Below are positions 8,672-55,706 of a stretch of DNA of 64,000 nucleotides, piece after piece. The position numbers and the translations under genes were made by a program. Each line of letters begins with the position of its first letter. Positions within the stretch are counted from its first letter, which is position 1. The stretch lies in contig JAFUOO010000022.1 of NCBI GenBank assembly GCA_017472685.1, positions 1-64,000 of the forward strand, in the 5' to 3' direction. The notes under the pieces were generated by a model. That model did no database searches and had not been told where the DNA came from. It saw nothing but the letters and a program-made list of their open reading frames with translations. The DNA is from Clostridia bacterium (GTDB lineage Bacteria; Bacillota; Clostridia; UMGS1883).

Positions 8672-8786
8672 GTCAGGCAATGCCTGACATATCGCATTTG
8701 CCGTAGGCAAATATATCGCACCCGACGGGTATATCGCGTGCGGAGCACATATCACATTGCCACCAAATGCTGAAATTTGTGGCAAT
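8672..8786. repeat. ATATCG-linked palindrome array 1
   Basis: Five consecutive hairpins of unrelated sequence are joined by a constant linker. In order they are GTCAGGC-aat-GCCTGAC, ATTTGCC-gta-GGCAAAT, ACCC-gac-GGGT, GTGC-gga-GCAC and a longer one, ATTGCCAC-cAAAT with ATTTGTGGCAAT. The linkers read CATATCGC, TATATCGC or CATATCAC, all in one orientation. The array fills the gap between the methyltransferase and the BaiN-like gene. It has no T run and no coding potential. The same design recurs at 23020 and 42159. Confidence 0.85.
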
Positions 8787-8832
8787 CAACAAACAATGTT
8801 GAATGAAGCCTGCGAGATGGAGGTTAAGACTT

Positions 8833-22230: not shown

Positions 22231-22278
22231 ATAAATCAATAAATGTGGCGTAAATTACAAAAACAGGGTGTGAATTAT

Positions 22279-23034
22279 ATGATTGTAAAAATAATATTGT
22301 TGTTAGCGGGGCTGTTTCTTTTTCTTAACGGAGCAGTTATGAGCCTGATTTCAAATTTTAATTTAGGTGTTATTTTAACTGTTGCAGCAGGCCTCGGTTT
22401 TCTTTTATGGGGCGTGTTTTATAGAAGGATTAACGAAAAAACAAAGAATGGCTGGCTCAAGTGGGCAAAAAGAGCTGTAATCGCACTTGTTTGTATTGAA
22501 ATTGCGCTTGTGGCATTCCTTGCCTACTATGGTCAGTTCGATAATTGTGACTATACTGAGGACGCAGTTATTGTGCTTGGCGCAGGCATACGCGGTGACC
22601 GTGTTACCGTGCCCTTGGCGTACAGGCTTAACTCCGCAATTGAATACCACAAGAAAAACCCCGACGCAGTTATTGTGGTAACGGGCGGTCAAGGCTACCA
22701 GGAAACAATAACCGAAGCGGAGGCTATGGAAAAGTATCTTCTCAGAAAGGGCGTTGACCCCCATAAAATCATAAAAGAAGAAAAGGCAACCAGCACAAAC
22801 GAAAACATGCGCTTTTCAAAAGAAATATTGGATAAGTATTTTGAGGGCGACTATTCAATTGTTGTTGTAACTAACAATTTCCACGTTTATCGAGGTGTGC
22901 AGATTGCAAAAATAGAAGGCTTTGAAAACGTATACCGCAAGCACGCAGGCTTAAAGTGGTATAACATGGCACCTTGCTATATTAGGGAGAGCTTAGCTGT
23001 GCTTAAGATGTGGGTTTTTGATATGCTTCTTTAG
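22279..23034 (+). CDS. YdcF/ElyC/SanA-family (DUF218) membrane protein
   Basis: Protein of 251 residues with three to four N-terminal hydrophobic segments (about 1-85) and a C-terminal DUF218 domain: AVIVLGAGIRGDRV, VVTGGQGYQETITEAEAMEKYL, ATSTNENMRFSKEIL and VVVTNNFHVYRG are the family blocks. Related proteins (YdcF, ElyC, SanA) are linked to envelope integrity and may bind nucleotides or lipid-linked precursors. Their biochemical role is not firmly known. I prefer the ATG at 22279 (AGGGTG upstream) over an in-frame ATG 36 bases earlier that lacks a ribosome site. The stop codon lies inside the first hairpin of palindrome array 2. Confidence 0.85.
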   Translation: MIVKIILLLAGLFLFLNGAVMSLISNFNLGVILTVAAGLGFLLWGVFYRRINEKTKNGWLKWAKRAVIALVCIEIALVAFLAYYGQFDNCDYTEDAVIVLGAGIRGDRVTVPLAYRLNSAIEYHKKNPDAVIVVTGGQGYQETITEAEAMEKYLLRKGVDPHKIIKEEKATSTNENMRFSKEILDKYFEGDYSIVVVTNNFHVYRGVQIAKIEGFENVYRKHAGLKWYNMAPCYIRESLAVLKMWVFDMLL

Positions 23035-23217
23035 AAGCATATCAGCGATATAAATCCCTGACGGGATTTTCGATATGTGCGGTGCACTCGATATGCCTTT
23101 GGCTCGATATGTCCTGCTGGACGATGGGATTTATATCATATCGAATGTGAGCGCAGTGAACATATATCGAAACGAAGCGTAGCGGAGTTATATCGAACAC
23201 GCAAAACGTGTATATCG
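23020..23217. repeat. ATATCG-linked palindrome array 2
   Basis: A series of hairpins with different stems: GATATGCTTC-ttta-GAAGCATATC (containing the stop codon of the preceding gene), AATCCC-tgac-GGGATT, TGC-ggt-GCA, CC-ttt-GG, TCC-tgct-GGA, imperfect stems at about 23143-23190, and ACACG-caaaa-CGTGT. In the left half the linkers read CGATATG; in the right half they read ATATCGA, its reverse complement. GATATAAATCCC (23047-23058) also pairs with GGGATTTATATC (23126-23137), so a large alternative fold exists. Confidence 0.85.
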
Positions 23218-23296: not shown

Positions 23297-23737
23297 ATGG
23301 GATTTTTGAAAGATTTTAAGGCATTTGCATTAAAGGGTAATGTTATCGACATGGCTGTCGGTGTTGTAATCGGCGGTGCTTTCGGTAAAATCGTAACAAG
23401 CATTGTTAACGATGTTATTATGCCCTTGGTATCGGTTATGACAGGTGGCGTAAACTTTACCGATTGGAAATGGGTGCTTTCTCCCGAAGTTGTTGACGAG
23501 GTTACTCAGGAGGTAGCAAAGGCTGAAGTTGCTCTTACATACGGCAACCTTATTCAGAACGTTGTTGACTTTTTGCTTATTGCTCTTTCTATTTTCGTTG
23601 TTATCCGTGTTGCAACCAAGGCGGGCGAAAAGCTTCGCAAGAAGGAAGAGGAGGCTCCTGCAGTAGAAGAGCCCAAGGGACCCACACAGGAAGAGCTTCT
23701 TACAGAAATCAGAGATTTGCTTAAGGCAAGCAAGTAG
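23297..23737 (+). CDS. mscL: Large-conductance mechanosensitive channel MscL
   Basis: Membrane channel of 146 residues that opens under membrane tension to release solutes after osmotic downshock. The N-terminal amphipathic segment FLKDFKAFALKGNVIDMAVGVVIGGAFGKIVTSIVNDVIMP is the MscL signature with transmembrane helix 1. A periplasm-like loop follows, then helix 2 (LIQNVVDFLLIALSIFVVIR) and a charged C-terminal bundle (about 115-146). AAAGGAG precedes the start. It is a single-gene unit with its own promoter and terminator. The length is normal. Confidence 0.96.
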   Translation: MGFLKDFKAFALKGNVIDMAVGVVIGGAFGKIVTSIVNDVIMPLVSVMTGGVNFTDWKWVLSPEVVDEVTQEVAKAEVALTYGNLIQNVVDFLLIALSIFVVIRVATKAGEKLRKKEEEAPAVEEPKGPTQEELLTEIRDLLKASK

Positions 23738-42122: not shown

Positions 42123-42156
42123 AATAAAACGTAGGGAAAGTCCCTACGTTTTATTG
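42123..42156 (+). terminator. Rho-independent terminator of the truA operon
   Basis: AATAAAACGTAGGGA pairs perfectly with TCCCTACGTTTTATT around AAG, immediately after the gene. Confidence 0.85.
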
Positions 42157-42158
42157 TT

Positions 42159-42377
42159 ATATAAATCCCTACGGGATTTGTGATATGTTTTCTATAGAAA
42201 ACGCGATATGTGCTTCGCACGCGATATATTTCTCTTCGAGAAATGTTAACGATAGAAAAACGAAATCGTTTTTCTTCTGCCTTTTTCACGTCCCGTAGGG
42301 ACATATCGCATTCGCCTGAAGCGAATATATCGAATTTTGCTTAGCAAAATATATCACATCCGCAGGATATATCACAA
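42159..42377. repeat. ATATCG-linked palindrome array 3
   Basis: About ten hairpins of unrelated sequence occur, including AATCCC-tac-GGGATT, TTTTC-tata-GAAAA, TGC-ttc-GCA, TTTCTC-ttc-GAGAAA, AGAAAAACGA-aa-TCGTTTTTCT, GTCCC-gta-GGGAC, TTCGC-ctgaa-GCGAA, TTTTGC-tta-GCAAAA and TCC-gca-GGA. Left-half linkers read GTGATATG, GCGATATG or GCGATATA; right-half linkers read ACATATCGC, TATATCG or TATATCAC, the reverse complement. It fills the gap between two convergent transcription units, each of which has its own terminator. Confidence 0.88.
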
Positions 42378-42408
42378 TAAAAGGCAGAGCGTTGCTCTGC
42401 CTTTTATT
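42376..42408 (-). terminator. Terminator of leuA
   Basis: AATAAAAGGCAGAGC pairs with GCTCTGCCTTTTATT around GTT. On the minus strand it follows the leuA stop by three bases. Confidence 0.85.
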
Positions 42409-42411
42409 GTT

Positions 42412-52904: not shown

Positions 52905-53082
52905 ACTAACGGAGCATTAGTGTAAGCCTATTGGCACCGACAGCGAGTCGTTGTCGGGACAAGGTTAGTAAAAGTATTCACGAGTTCAGCTGAAACAGCT
53001 GTGGCAGTATAAAAAGGCCCACTTCATGGGCTCATATACAGCCACATCAGCTTCATGATTCGCATTGTTTTGCTCCGTAAAG
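52905..53082 (+). ncRNA. Retron msr-msd RNA
   Basis: The a1/a2 pair is ACGGAGCA (52909-52916) with TGCTCCGT (53071-53078), eight perfect pairs that enclose the RNA. TTAG directly follows a1, as in Ec86, so G52920 is the candidate branching guanosine. The msr part has a small stem GCC-TATT-GGC and a nine-pair stem, CCGACAGCG (52937-52945) with CGTTGTCGG (52949-52957). The msd part has a long interrupted stem (52997-53052): AGCTG/CAGCT, TGGC/GCCA, GTATA/TATAC and GCCCA/TGGGC around CTTCA. The RT gene starts 25 bases after a2. The exact ends and the msr/msd boundary are inferred. Confidence 0.72.
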
Positions 53083-53102
53083 GAAAGGGGGAGGGCTTAA
53101 TA

Positions 53103-54032
53103 ATGATTACAATTACATACAAGGAGCTTTCCTCCTTAACTTGTGATTTAGGCTTTTCGGCAAGGGCGCTCTATAGCCTGAGCAACCATGCCTCAAAGCA
53201 TTATCATAAAACGGTAATACCAAAGGGTAGCGGCGGTGAAAGAGTTCTCCATGTTCCCGACAATTTTTTAAAAGCGGTACAGCGGAGCATTGTCAGAAAC
53301 ATTCTCTCACACGAGGAGGTTTCGCCCTATGCAAGGGCATACCGCTACGGAGCATCAACCCTTAAGAATGCCATGCCTCATAAGGGGCATAAGGTTATTT
53401 TAAAGCTCGACATTAAAAATTTTTTCGACAGCATCATTTACCCCTTGGTGAAGAAAAAGGTTTTTCCAAGTGAGCGCTTTTCTGAAAGCAACCGTGTGCT
53501 GCTCACACTCCTTTGCATGTATAAGGATGCGCTTCCCCAGGGTGCGCCAACATCCCCCTGTATTTCGAACATAATCATGAAGGATTTTGACAACACCGTA
53601 GGCACCTGGTGCAAAGAGAGAAACATTACCTATACGCGCTACTGTGACGACTTAACCTTTTCGGGTGATTTTAACGTGGATGAAGCAAAAGCATTTGTCG
53701 AAGCTGAGCTTAAGAAAATGGGCTTTTTTCTGAACGCTAAAAAGACAACTGTTCTGCGTGACGGGCAGAAAAAGTGTGTAACGGGCATTTTGGTGAACGA
53801 TAAAATAAATGCCCCTTTGGAATACCGCAAGAGCATACGGCAGGCTGTTTACTACTGCAAAAAGTTCGGAATTGATGAGCATTTAAAGAGAAACGGCATT
53901 GAAAAGGCGGCAGAGGGCTACCTTAAAAGCCTTCTGGGCAGGATTAATTATGTGTTGTCAATAGATAACACTAACGAAGAAATGAAAGGCTACAAAGCCT
54001 GGGCTGTAAAGCAGTTAAAGAAATTGAAATAG
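53103..54032 (+). CDS. Retron reverse transcriptase
   Basis: Reverse transcriptase of 309 residues that would make msDNA from the adjacent RNA. Retron-specific marks are NAMPH at 89-93 (the NAXXH motif of region X) and VTG at 226-228 (region Y). The catalytic motifs are LDIKNFFDS (D103), QGAPTSPCISN (146-156) and RYCDDLTFS with the YxDD aspartates at 182-183; the family usually has YADD, so Cys replaces Ala. Length and motif order fit a stand-alone retron RT with no fused domain. I start at 53103 behind an AAAGGAAAGGGGG tract; an upstream in-frame ATG would extend the protein by 16 residues into the msd. No effector gene is adjacent. Confidence 0.93.
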   Translation: MITITYKELSSLTCDLGFSARALYSLSNHASKHYHKTVIPKGSGGERVLHVPDNFLKAVQRSIVRNILSHEEVSPYARAYRYGASTLKNAMPHKGHKVILKLDIKNFFDSIIYPLVKKKVFPSERFSESNRVLLTLLCMYKDALPQGAPTSPCISNIIMKDFDNTVGTWCKERNITYTRYCDDLTFSGDFNVDEAKAFVEAELKKMGFFLNAKKTTVLRDGQKKCVTGILVNDKINAPLEYRKSIRQAVYYCKKFGIDEHLKRNGIEKAAEGYLKSLLGRINYVLSIDNTNEEMKGYKAWAVKQLKKLK

Positions 54033-54197: not shown

Positions 54198-55706
54198 ATG
54201 AAAAAAGTTATAAGCTTAATAATTGTGATATGTATTGTGTTTTCTTCTGTAGCGGTATTGGCAGAGGAAGAAACCGAAGTTAAAAAATATGATGATTTTG
54301 TTTACATAACAGAAGGCGATAGAAATGTAATTATAGGCACGGACGCTTTTGGAGAAACATTAATTTCAAATACAAAAGATAACAGCAAATCTCAATCGGA
54401 CTATTTTACTTATGACGAGGCAGATGACAATGTAACCATAACAGGACTTGGTGATAATGCACCCATGGATATTGTTATCCCCGGTGAGATAAACGGCAAA
54501 AAGGTGATTTTGGAGACAGATGCTTTTGAATATGAAAAAATTGAAAGTGTAATTATTGAAGAAGGCATAACCGAAATACCCCAGAAGTGTTTTTATAACT
54601 GCAAAAACTTAAAAAGTGTAATACTGCCTGACAGCGTTACAGTTCTGGGTTATTTAGCTTTTGCAAATTCGGGCATTGAAGAAATCGCGTTGCCCGAATT
54701 TGTAGAAAACTCAGGCTATAGTACGTTTTTTGAATGCTCAAGCCTTAAAAGAGTTGACCTTAACAACGCAAAGAGCGTGGGGCTTTTCTCGTTCAGATAC
54801 TGTGACTCCCTTGAAACTGTAACACATTCGGGAAACCTTACAGGCATTGCAGACTTTGCCTTTGCAGGTTGCTCAGGTCTTAGAAATATTGACCTTTCGA
54901 CGGTTGAGAGCTTTGGAAAAAATGTATTCCAAGGGTGCGGAAGTCTCAGTTTTGTAAATTTGCAGAGTTTAAAAGAATGGGAAGGCTTTTATAGTGAAGA
55001 TGTAGACGACGAAAGCATGATGCTTAAATCGCAGGGCTTTTATTCCCATCATACATATTCCGACCCTGCAGAGTACAAAGCATTATTATTGGGCACAAGC
55101 ATCGATACCGTGCGGATAAGATTCCCCGAAACAGAAGATGAGGAGTTAGGCGTTATATTTATAAATTCAACTGTCAAAAACATTGTTTTTGACAATTTCC
55201 CCGAAAACATCAATAGGTGGGAATTTTACAGCGCAAAATCAATAGATACCTCCATGAACAGAAAAGTAAAACTGGAAAAGAAGCATAAAGGCTTTACAAT
55301 TTACGGAAAAGATGACGGAGTGCGGGAATATGCCGAAATGGTAGGAGCAGAATACAGAGAGCTGATTGATATTACAGTGGATGGCAAAACGCTGTATTCA
55401 GACGTATTGCCATATATAAAAAACGACAGAACTTTAGTTCCCATGCGTGCAATTTTTGAAGCACTTGGGGCAGAAGTGAGTTGGGACGATGCAACAAAAA
55501 CTGCAATCGGCAAAAAGGGCGGTGTAGAAGTTAAAATCACCATAGGTGAAAACGTTCTTTACAAAAGCGGCGAGGCGATTGAACTTGATGCTGCAGCGGA
55601 GATAACCAACGACCGCACAATGGTGCCTGTAAGGGCAATCAGTGAAGCGTTTGGCTCGACGGTAGAGTGGGATAATGACACGAAAACGGCTGTGATAACA
55701 AATTAA
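54198..55706 (+). CDS. Secreted BspA-type LRR protein with PF07833 C-terminus
   Basis: Extracellular protein of 502 residues with a signal peptide (1-22, ending LAEE). Residues of about 85-270 are LRR_5/BspA-type repeats with the pattern I-x-x-x-AF-x-x-C-x-x-L (IPQKCFYNCKNLKSVILPDSV and FAGCSGLRNIDLS). The C-terminal 110 residues form a copper-amine-oxidase-N-like (PF07833) domain with the paired NDRTLVPMRAIFEALGAEVSW and NDRTMVPVRAISEAFGSTVEW. LRR_5 proteins are common adhesins in gut bacteria, and PF07833 here may hold the protein at the wall. The next gene encodes a longer LRR paralogue with a near-identical signal peptide. Confidence 0.85.
   Translation: MKKVISLIIVICIVFSSVAVLAEEETEVKKYDDFVYITEGDRNVIIGTDAFGETLISNTKDNSKSQSDYFTYDEADDNVTITGLGDNAPMDIVIPGEINGKKVILETDAFEYEKIESVIIEEGITEIPQKCFYNCKNLKSVILPDSVTVLGYLAFANSGIEEIALPEFVENSGYSTFFECSSLKRVDLNNAKSVGLFSFRYCDSLETVTHSGNLTGIADFAFAGCSGLRNIDLSTVESFGKNVFQGCGSLSFVNLQSLKEWEGFYSEDVDDESMMLKSQGFYSHHTYSDPAEYKALLLGTSIDTVRIRFPETEDEELGVIFINSTVKNIVFDNFPENINRWEFYSAKSIDTSMNRKVKLEKKHKGFTIYGKDDGVREYAEMVGAEYRELIDITVDGKTLYSDVLPYIKNDRTLVPMRAIFEALGAEVSWDDATKTAIGKKGGVEVKITIGENVLYKSGEAIELDAAAEITNDRTMVPVRAISEAFGSTVEWDNDTKTAVITN

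Follow-up and report, generated by a model that had tools for sequence, protein, structure and literature searches.

Hairpin ladders in gut Clostridia: dispersed palindrome arrays with linkers that may be read by cognate four-helix-bundle proteins

Three intergenic stretches in the genome of a Clostridia bacterium raise the question of what kind of element keeps a short linker word constant while the palindromes joined by that word are free to vary. They lie in a stretch of 64,000 nucleotides, hereafter the window (G000:C15:1-64000), of an assembly (G000) of 2.30 Mb in 29 contigs that is 89% complete. In each, perfect short palindromes are joined by near-constant ATATCG or ATATCAC linkers or by their reverse complements, CGATAT and GTGATAT (Table 1). 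The initial annotation had named the same three places, and a de novo scan with a linker-free detector, which accepts any hexamer with hairpins between its successive copies, recovered at least two linker-hairpin units at these and nowhere else in the 64 kb.

Arrays in the window

All three arrays are situated between protein genes and not in rRNA. Array 1 reads GTGATAT-HP-GCGATAT-HP-..-GTTA on the minus strand, and the hairpin next to it is, judging from its sequence, probably an outer stem-loop or a terminator-like flank. Array 2 is preceded by a further hairpin, HP0, within which falls the stop codon (23032-23034) of a DUF218 gene (22243-23034); the HP0 stem is also found in the related genomes G002 and G003, with both of its arms altered there. 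The interval between array 2 and mscL includes a stretch that looks promoter-like by eye. Arrays 2 and 3 are inverted structures, as the CGATAT linkers occupy the left half and the ATATCG linkers the right. The centre of array 2 could serve as an alternative partner for the 5' arm of its first hairpin, HP1. The centre of array 3 (42245-42289) is non-canonical in having no HP1 complement, which counts against the mechanism proposed below; array 3 accordingly resembles two ATATCGC half-arrays placed head to head.

Table 1. Arrays, their parts and their neighbours in the window
Feature	Position	Strand	Remarks
Array 1	8672..8755	-	half-array, ATATCGC type
Array 1 hairpins	8672-8688, 8696-8712, 8720-8730, 8738-8748		each followed by a linker
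Array 1 linkers	8689-8695, 8713-8719, 8731-8737, 8749-8755		
Hairpin ATTGCCAC..GTGGCAAT	8756..8787		immediately past array 1
HP0 of array 2, GATATGCTTCTTTAGAAGCATATC	23020..23043	+	
Array 2	23046..23217	+	full element, ATATCGA type; same site in G003 and G002
Array 2 left linkers L1-L4 (CGATAT)	start 23046, 23071, 23089, 23105		
Array 2 HP1-HP4	23052-23069, 23077-23087, 23095-23103, 23111-23122		
Array 2 centre GGGATTTATATC	23126..23137	+	reverse complement of left end GATATAAATCCC (23047-23058)
Array 2 right linkers R1-R4 (ATATCG)	start 23138, 23164, 23190, 23212		
Array 2 HP5-HP7	23145-23163, 23171-23189, 23197-23211		
mscL	23297..23737	+	downstream of array 2; Pfam MscL 3.6e-44
Terminator-like palindrome AATAAAACGTAGGGA..TCCCTACGTTTTATT	42123..42155		left flank of array 3
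Array 3	42156..42375		four left and four right linkers
Array 3 left linkers	42156-42162, 42180-42186, 42203-42209, 42221-42227		
Array 3 hairpins, left part	42163-42179, 42187-42202, 42210-42220, 42228-42244		
Array 3 hairpins, right part	42290-42302, 42310-42326, 42334-42350, 42358-42368		
Array 3 right linkers	42303-42309, 42327-42333, 42351-42357, 42369-42375		
Terminator-like palindrome CAATAAAAGGCAGAGC..GCTCTGCCTTTTATTG	42376..42410		right flank of array 3

Genomic distribution and placement

The dispersal proposed in the initial annotation is borne out across the genome: the pattern ATATCG-N8-38-ATATCG-N8-38-ATATC has 46 matches in the 2.30 Mb as against none for the reversed pattern, and these reduce to about 25 loci once a single coding match (window 48358) is removed, the counts being drawn from pattern searches and the inspection of individual sequence stretches. 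Half-copies exist besides full elements, and many copies are solitary, near genes unrelated to one another. None of 40 arrays lies within a divergent gene gap. For most, a stop codon is only tens of bases away, and an A/T-tract palindrome, apparently a part of some of the copies, is often found just beyond the left end. This placement would suit host gene-end structures such as tandem terminators or mRNA stabilisers. However, the array hairpins have no T-tracts, the arrays are missing from orthologous gene ends, and carriers of the ATATCG class are patchy across the Clostridia, leaving this explanation very unlikely.

Two further associations were seen in the flanks. Ladders, as we call the arrays for the fold described below, are often directly past a tRNA gene, with a AGAAAAAAGC..GCTTTTTTC palindrome in between (L034, L070, L139, L141, L157 and L169). 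A 24-base motif, GCATCTAAACCTTATGCCTCGCAA, occurs in 17 copies in G069 and in eight each in G104 and G011, with none in the reversed control; it is positioned beside small ORFs, often beside ladders (L068, L069, L071 and L341), and resembles a cassette or recombination site.

Architecture and fold of the full element

In the full element, four CGATAT linkers on the left and four ATATCG linkers on the right enclose a centre that is complementary to the left end, and there are seven hairpins in all. The count of four left and four right linkers recurs in the CGATAT, CTAAAT and GAAAT classes, and a complement of 9-14 nt between the left end and the centre is present in most elements tested, a tally that leaves out L138, L148, L157, L158 and L133 (wrong start). 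The initial annotation had held that the hairpins have no sequence in common; this does not stand, given the fixed architecture, the loop code described below and stems that are specific to their position, as with HP1, which takes the form AAATYCC..GGRATTT. In HP1, three bases of the 5' arm are variable, and they co-vary with their counterparts in the 3' arm and in the centre, as CTC/GAG/GAG (n=10), TCC/GGA/GGA (n=8) and CCC/GGG/GGG (n=1). Their complementarity is 0.97 and 0.90 as opposed to 0.62 and 0.61 upon shuffling, with 0 of 10,000 shuffles as high in each case, although the HP1/centre shuffle figure is not a strict probability because the copies are related.

The minimum-energy fold of L144 is the ladder expected from pairing L1 with R4, L2 with R3, L3 with R2 and L4 with R1, with hairpins at each step; the folds of arrays 2 and 3 differ from it in detail. 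The outer linkers, CGATAT and ATATCG, form terminal inverted repeats, a feature shared with MITEs, and the copies L199 and L202 agree until about 5 bases past them. One hairpin of the right half (e.g., window 23171-23189) displays GA-GC-nnn-GC-GA, with possible tandem G.A pairs, in several linker classes; this is the sole interior motif common to different classes.

Stems and loops as DNA or RNA

The stems are mostly of 4-8 bp and the loops of 3 or 4 nt. In the ATATCG class, the stems of 268 distinct hairpins comprise 1547 Watson-Crick pairs, 6 GT and 11 AC, and the oriented full elements give 894, 2 and 3, respectively. Terminator-like hairpins treated similarly have 143 GT versus 99 AC in 8,635 pairs. 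Hence, G-U is tolerated no more than A-C in the array stems.

The loops are likewise constrained on the strand that reads ATATCG: GNA makes up 70 of 133 triloops, with TNC at 2, and GNNA makes up 47 of 81 tetraloops, with no TNNC. A C-G pair closes the loop in 195 of 232 cases, yielding a C(GNA)G/C(GNNA)G code that is the same in other linker classes. An RNA-type preference for GNRA was not found in these loops, GTCA, GACA and GTTA being as common as GCAA, GTAA and GAAA. DNA mini-hairpins that have a GNA or GNNA loop and a closing G-C pair are extraordinarily stable (PMC4686876). Together, the stem pairing and the loop code favour hairpin DNA as the selected form, albeit not decisively: a TNC triloop with C-G closing is also UNCG-like when read as RNA from the other strand, which weakens the case for DNA. 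Since the left and right halves carry their GNA loops on opposite strands, no single strand has all the favoured loops, a point against the mechanism proposed below.

Conservation, turnover and empty sites

Array 2 occupies the site between the DUF218 gene and mscL in G000, G003 and G002. Between G000 and G003, whose flanking genes are only about 75-79% identical, the 48 linker bases are unchanged, and there is a single change each in the stems (64 bases) and in the centre (12 bases). The loops and spacers differ at 9 of 48 positions (p = 2e-4 against linker, stem and centre combined). These figures uphold the suggestion of the initial annotation that the arrays are under selection; its statement that the linker is fixed while the hairpins vary also stands. 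At the same site in G002, the linkers and the plan are kept, and HP2 and HP3 are replaced by other hairpins.

The latter replacement and the alteration of both HP0 arms fit a process of local palindrome correction, i.e., template switching at quasi-palindromes, which would perfect stems and replace hairpins with no dedicated protein; the near-perfect Watson-Crick stems, with no tolerance of G-U, fit it as well. Such turnover had been suggested in the initial annotation. As the main cause, it is quite improbable, in that it leaves unexplained the fixed linkers, the four-plus-four plan, the centre complement, the loop code and the link between linker and protein described below; the arrays keep their architecture at sites and in genomes that are unrelated, and they track a cognate protein gene. 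What survives of the suggestion is that palindrome correction may make new hairpins inside a ladder.

Whether an orthologous site holds an array differs between genomes, and gain and loss look alike there. Array 3 is missing from its orthologous site in G002 (85 bp versus 408 bp), and unrelated sequence replaces array 1 in the same genome. One orthologous gap holds an ATATCG array in G000 (L067) and a TGAATT array together with a four-helix-bundle gene in G002 (L138). The flanks of the empty sites are 75-87% identical, too diverged for reading a target-site duplication or a junction. In G001, the gap orthologous to that of array 3 (G001:C8 and G001:C47) has a different inverted repeat, which ends both contigs.

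Partner genes and linker classes

Some arrays are directly followed by a gene of the PF05635 family (23S rRNA IVP; NCBIfam TIGR02436, "four helix bundle protein"). The ATATCGA-linked protein matches PF05635 and TIGR02436 with 5.7e-21 and 1.9e-23, and its relative in the PDB is 2rld (4.1e-22). As 2rld has five chains, the four-helix-bundle protein is probably a pentamer.

A PF05635 search over 118 relatives, after which the flanks were read, revealed that most of the genes found adjoin an array of the same plan with another linker word, the full ladders being located in the 5' region of the four-helix-bundle gene. The words are CGATAT (sub-classes ATATCGA and ATATCGC), GTGATAT, TGATAT, GTTATAT, GTGAAAT/TGAAAT and ATGAAATC, and further GCTAAAT, TGAATT, GTGAAG, ATGAAGC and GTGATG. 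At least two units were detected at 27 of 51 PF05635 loci versus 0 of 368 random places in the window. Named genomes, scanned with an alignment of 11 array-linked proteins as the query, had at least two flank units at 67 of 80 loci versus 19 of 626 control places (3%) elsewhere within those loci; nearly all the carriers are MAGs of Clostridia and Oscillospiraceae, most of them from the gut of ruminants and deer. As a negative control, more distant PF05635 genes of the phylum were scanned, and arrays of at least two units are present at 2 of 29 loci, the minus-strand loci having been left unturned, with their upstream flank thereby limited to 350 bases. The link is therefore a property of one subfamily. 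Among viral contigs, the scan yielded 12 relatives, of which two have at least two units.

The linker word follows the protein phylogeny. When labels assigned by reading the flanks are placed on the tree of the four-helix-bundle proteins (n=45), 15 changes are needed, the minimum being 14; shuffled labels need 33.5 on average, and none of 200 shuffles needs as few. Even the proteins of the ATATCGA and ATATCGC sub-classes fall into distinct groups, the second of which includes a close ATATAAC relative. Genomes of four families, on short branches, make up the ATATCGA clade. In G001 and G104, two genomes of different families, one element retains 91.6% identity over 202 bp; both observations fit a horizontal spread of protein and linker together. 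The pairing is incomplete in places: G003, G017 and G034, all incomplete MAGs, have ATATCG arrays and no PF05635 match, and in G000 an ATATCGC-type protein was not detected, the nearest, L137, being located in an ATATAAC array.

Two loci stand apart as observations. At L128 (G075), CACTAGC-like words join hairpins downstream of a PF05635 gene; the place is negative with our detector and is possibly another linker class. A contig labelled Akkermansia sp. (L260) contains an ATATCG ladder and its four-helix-bundle gene, either by transfer or as a misbinned contig.

Relation to known systems

The initial annotation knew of no named class for these arrays. This holds for the ATATCG class, as array 2 scores just 14 bits with the Gut-1 RNA model of Rfam (RF01706, cut-off 50) and an Rfam scan of the window returned nothing at the gathering score; it fails for a sister class, since the same covariance model gives 73.9 bits for L157 and 66.2 and 52.7 bits for L139, all in the GTGAAAT class. 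The 77-nt Gut-1 consensus is L1-HP1-L2-HP2-L3-HP3-L4 with UGAAAU linkers, i.e., the left half of the GTGAAAT-class elements. Half of one sister class has thus already been recorded as an orphan RNA, and the right half, the other linker words and the ATATCG class are outside Rfam. A search of the open-access literature under Gut-1, IVP, PF05635, TIGR02436 or four helix bundle protein recovered no prior description.

The filing of Gut-1 as an sRNA raises the alternative of an RNA-level element, in which the ladder would bind the four-helix-bundle protein as a small RNA or a structured leader, for instance in autoregulation or protection, and would have spread with the gene. The position of full ladders 5' of that gene, the tendency of half-arrays toward the sense orientation in gene strings and the action of the IVS and Avd relatives with RNA (PMC4990558, PMC10053308) are all in keeping with it. 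The stems argue otherwise, with G-U no commoner than A-C where terminator-like hairpins show an excess, as do the GNYA loops, which are as common as GNRA, the many solitary copies near unrelated genes and the left halves of different classes, which share no common sequence. On balance, we regard an RNA-level element as unlikely.

The closest parallel is the REPIN-RAYT system, in which the tag adjoins the gene and the protein and repeat co-evolve (PMC3116915). The ladders, too, have many non-autonomous inverted palindromic copies with one master gene per tag class and, like REP and REPIN sequences, are dispersed, intergenic and in inverted pairs. They differ in that the linker is kept while the palindrome varies, both within and between copies, in having seven hairpins in a four-plus-four ladder and in the want of a Y1 transposase. 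The view that they are REPs or REPINs mobilised by a known transposase, be it a RAYT (Y1) or some other, and that the four-helix-bundle gene is only a passenger, gains something from the single tag word of each class and from the Y1 transposases of some carriers. Yet, in genome-wide enzyme searches that covered Y1 and RT, the Y1 transposase (PF01797) has no match in G000 (89% complete) or G011, and the RT (PF00078) none in G002 or G011, two array-rich genomes; hence, neither is a general partner. Given also that the stem sequence is unconserved, that the GTAG/CGTC tag is missing and that the linkers co-segregate with the four-helix-bundle protein, we consider this rival largely refuted and its being correct extremely improbable. 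A retro-element with its own RT is ruled out by the several carriers that have no RT. The only RT match of G000 is an ORF in the window (RVT_1, 4.8e-22; 53055-54032, plus strand), which adjoins a BspA-type leucine-rich-repeat gene (54198-55706).

With the 23S rRNA intervening sequences and their S23/IVP proteins, the ladders share the PF05635 family, a stem-forming element and an optional gene. Unlike them, the ladders are intergenic, multi-copy and multi-hairpin, and an Rfam scan of 12 array loci found tRNAs and Gut-1 and no rRNA. The intervening sequences have been proposed to be mobile, and the function of their protein is unknown (PMC4990558). PF05635 also resembles Avd, the accessory protein of diversity-generating retroelements (PMC10053308), but the array-linked genes have no adjacent RT, template or variable repeat. 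An Avd-like gene does occur beside repeats typical of such a retroelement at L170 (G024:C9), with an RT match at the same place.

BIMEs, BOX elements and other bacterial mosaic repeats are modular, intergenic and built from conserved modules. The ladders are likewise modular intergenic mosaic arrays, differing from these in that the interior of the module is free to vary.

A proposed mechanism and its implications

Computation shows the elements to be dispersed, built to one plan, conserved, present at some orthologous sites and absent from others, and found across families, with linker and protein co-segregating. We think it reasonably probable that these observations reflect a dispersed, REPIN-RAYT-like miniature element, a "hairpin ladder," whose linker is read, as hairpin DNA, by a cognate four-helix-bundle protein. 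By pairing, the left and right linkers would fold a single strand into a ladder of four-way junctions, every step of which bears two hairpins. Recognition would fall to the linker word. The hairpins would need no more than a loop of the C(GNA)G or C(GNNA)G type, leaving their stems to change freely. Each linker class would have its own PF05635 protein, encoded directly beside a ladder with the same linker, and the majority of the copies, being gene-less, would rely on that protein in trans, as REPINs do on a RAYT; we infer mobility in trans on this basis. The protein, a homolog of the pentameric IVP and of Avd, would bind linker and hairpin, the bound form being hairpin DNA that is exposed during replication or extruded as a cruciform, and binding would spread copies to the neighbourhood of gene ends and of stem-loops already in place. 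To our knowledge, PF05635 has no nuclease activity, which counts against this reading; the enzyme that cuts and joins the DNA may be the host's.

More tentatively, and with somewhat less than even confidence, we suggest that the ladders make up a new class of element, selfish or domesticated. Its ultra-stable DNA hairpins would be free to vary within a ladder of four-way junctions, and the class-specific linker that joins them would be read by a pentameric four-helix-bundle protein; at least eight linker classes would exist in gut Clostridia, with the Gut-1 RNA as half of one. No named class in the open-access literature combines these features, the known pieces being one Rfam fragment and a protein family.

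Proteins of the PF05635 "four helix bundle" family are common, and their function has been unclear ever since they were noted in 23S rRNA intervening sequences; one subfamily now has a visible nucleic-acid partner. Because nature offers a series of matched linker-protein pairs, their specificity can be tested by simple swaps. An orphan protein family and the orphan RNA record Gut-1 thereby gain one common, testable explanation, which would place a second system of one master gene and many copies beside REPIN-RAYT and points to GNA and GNNA hairpin loops in DNA as a feature selected in nature.
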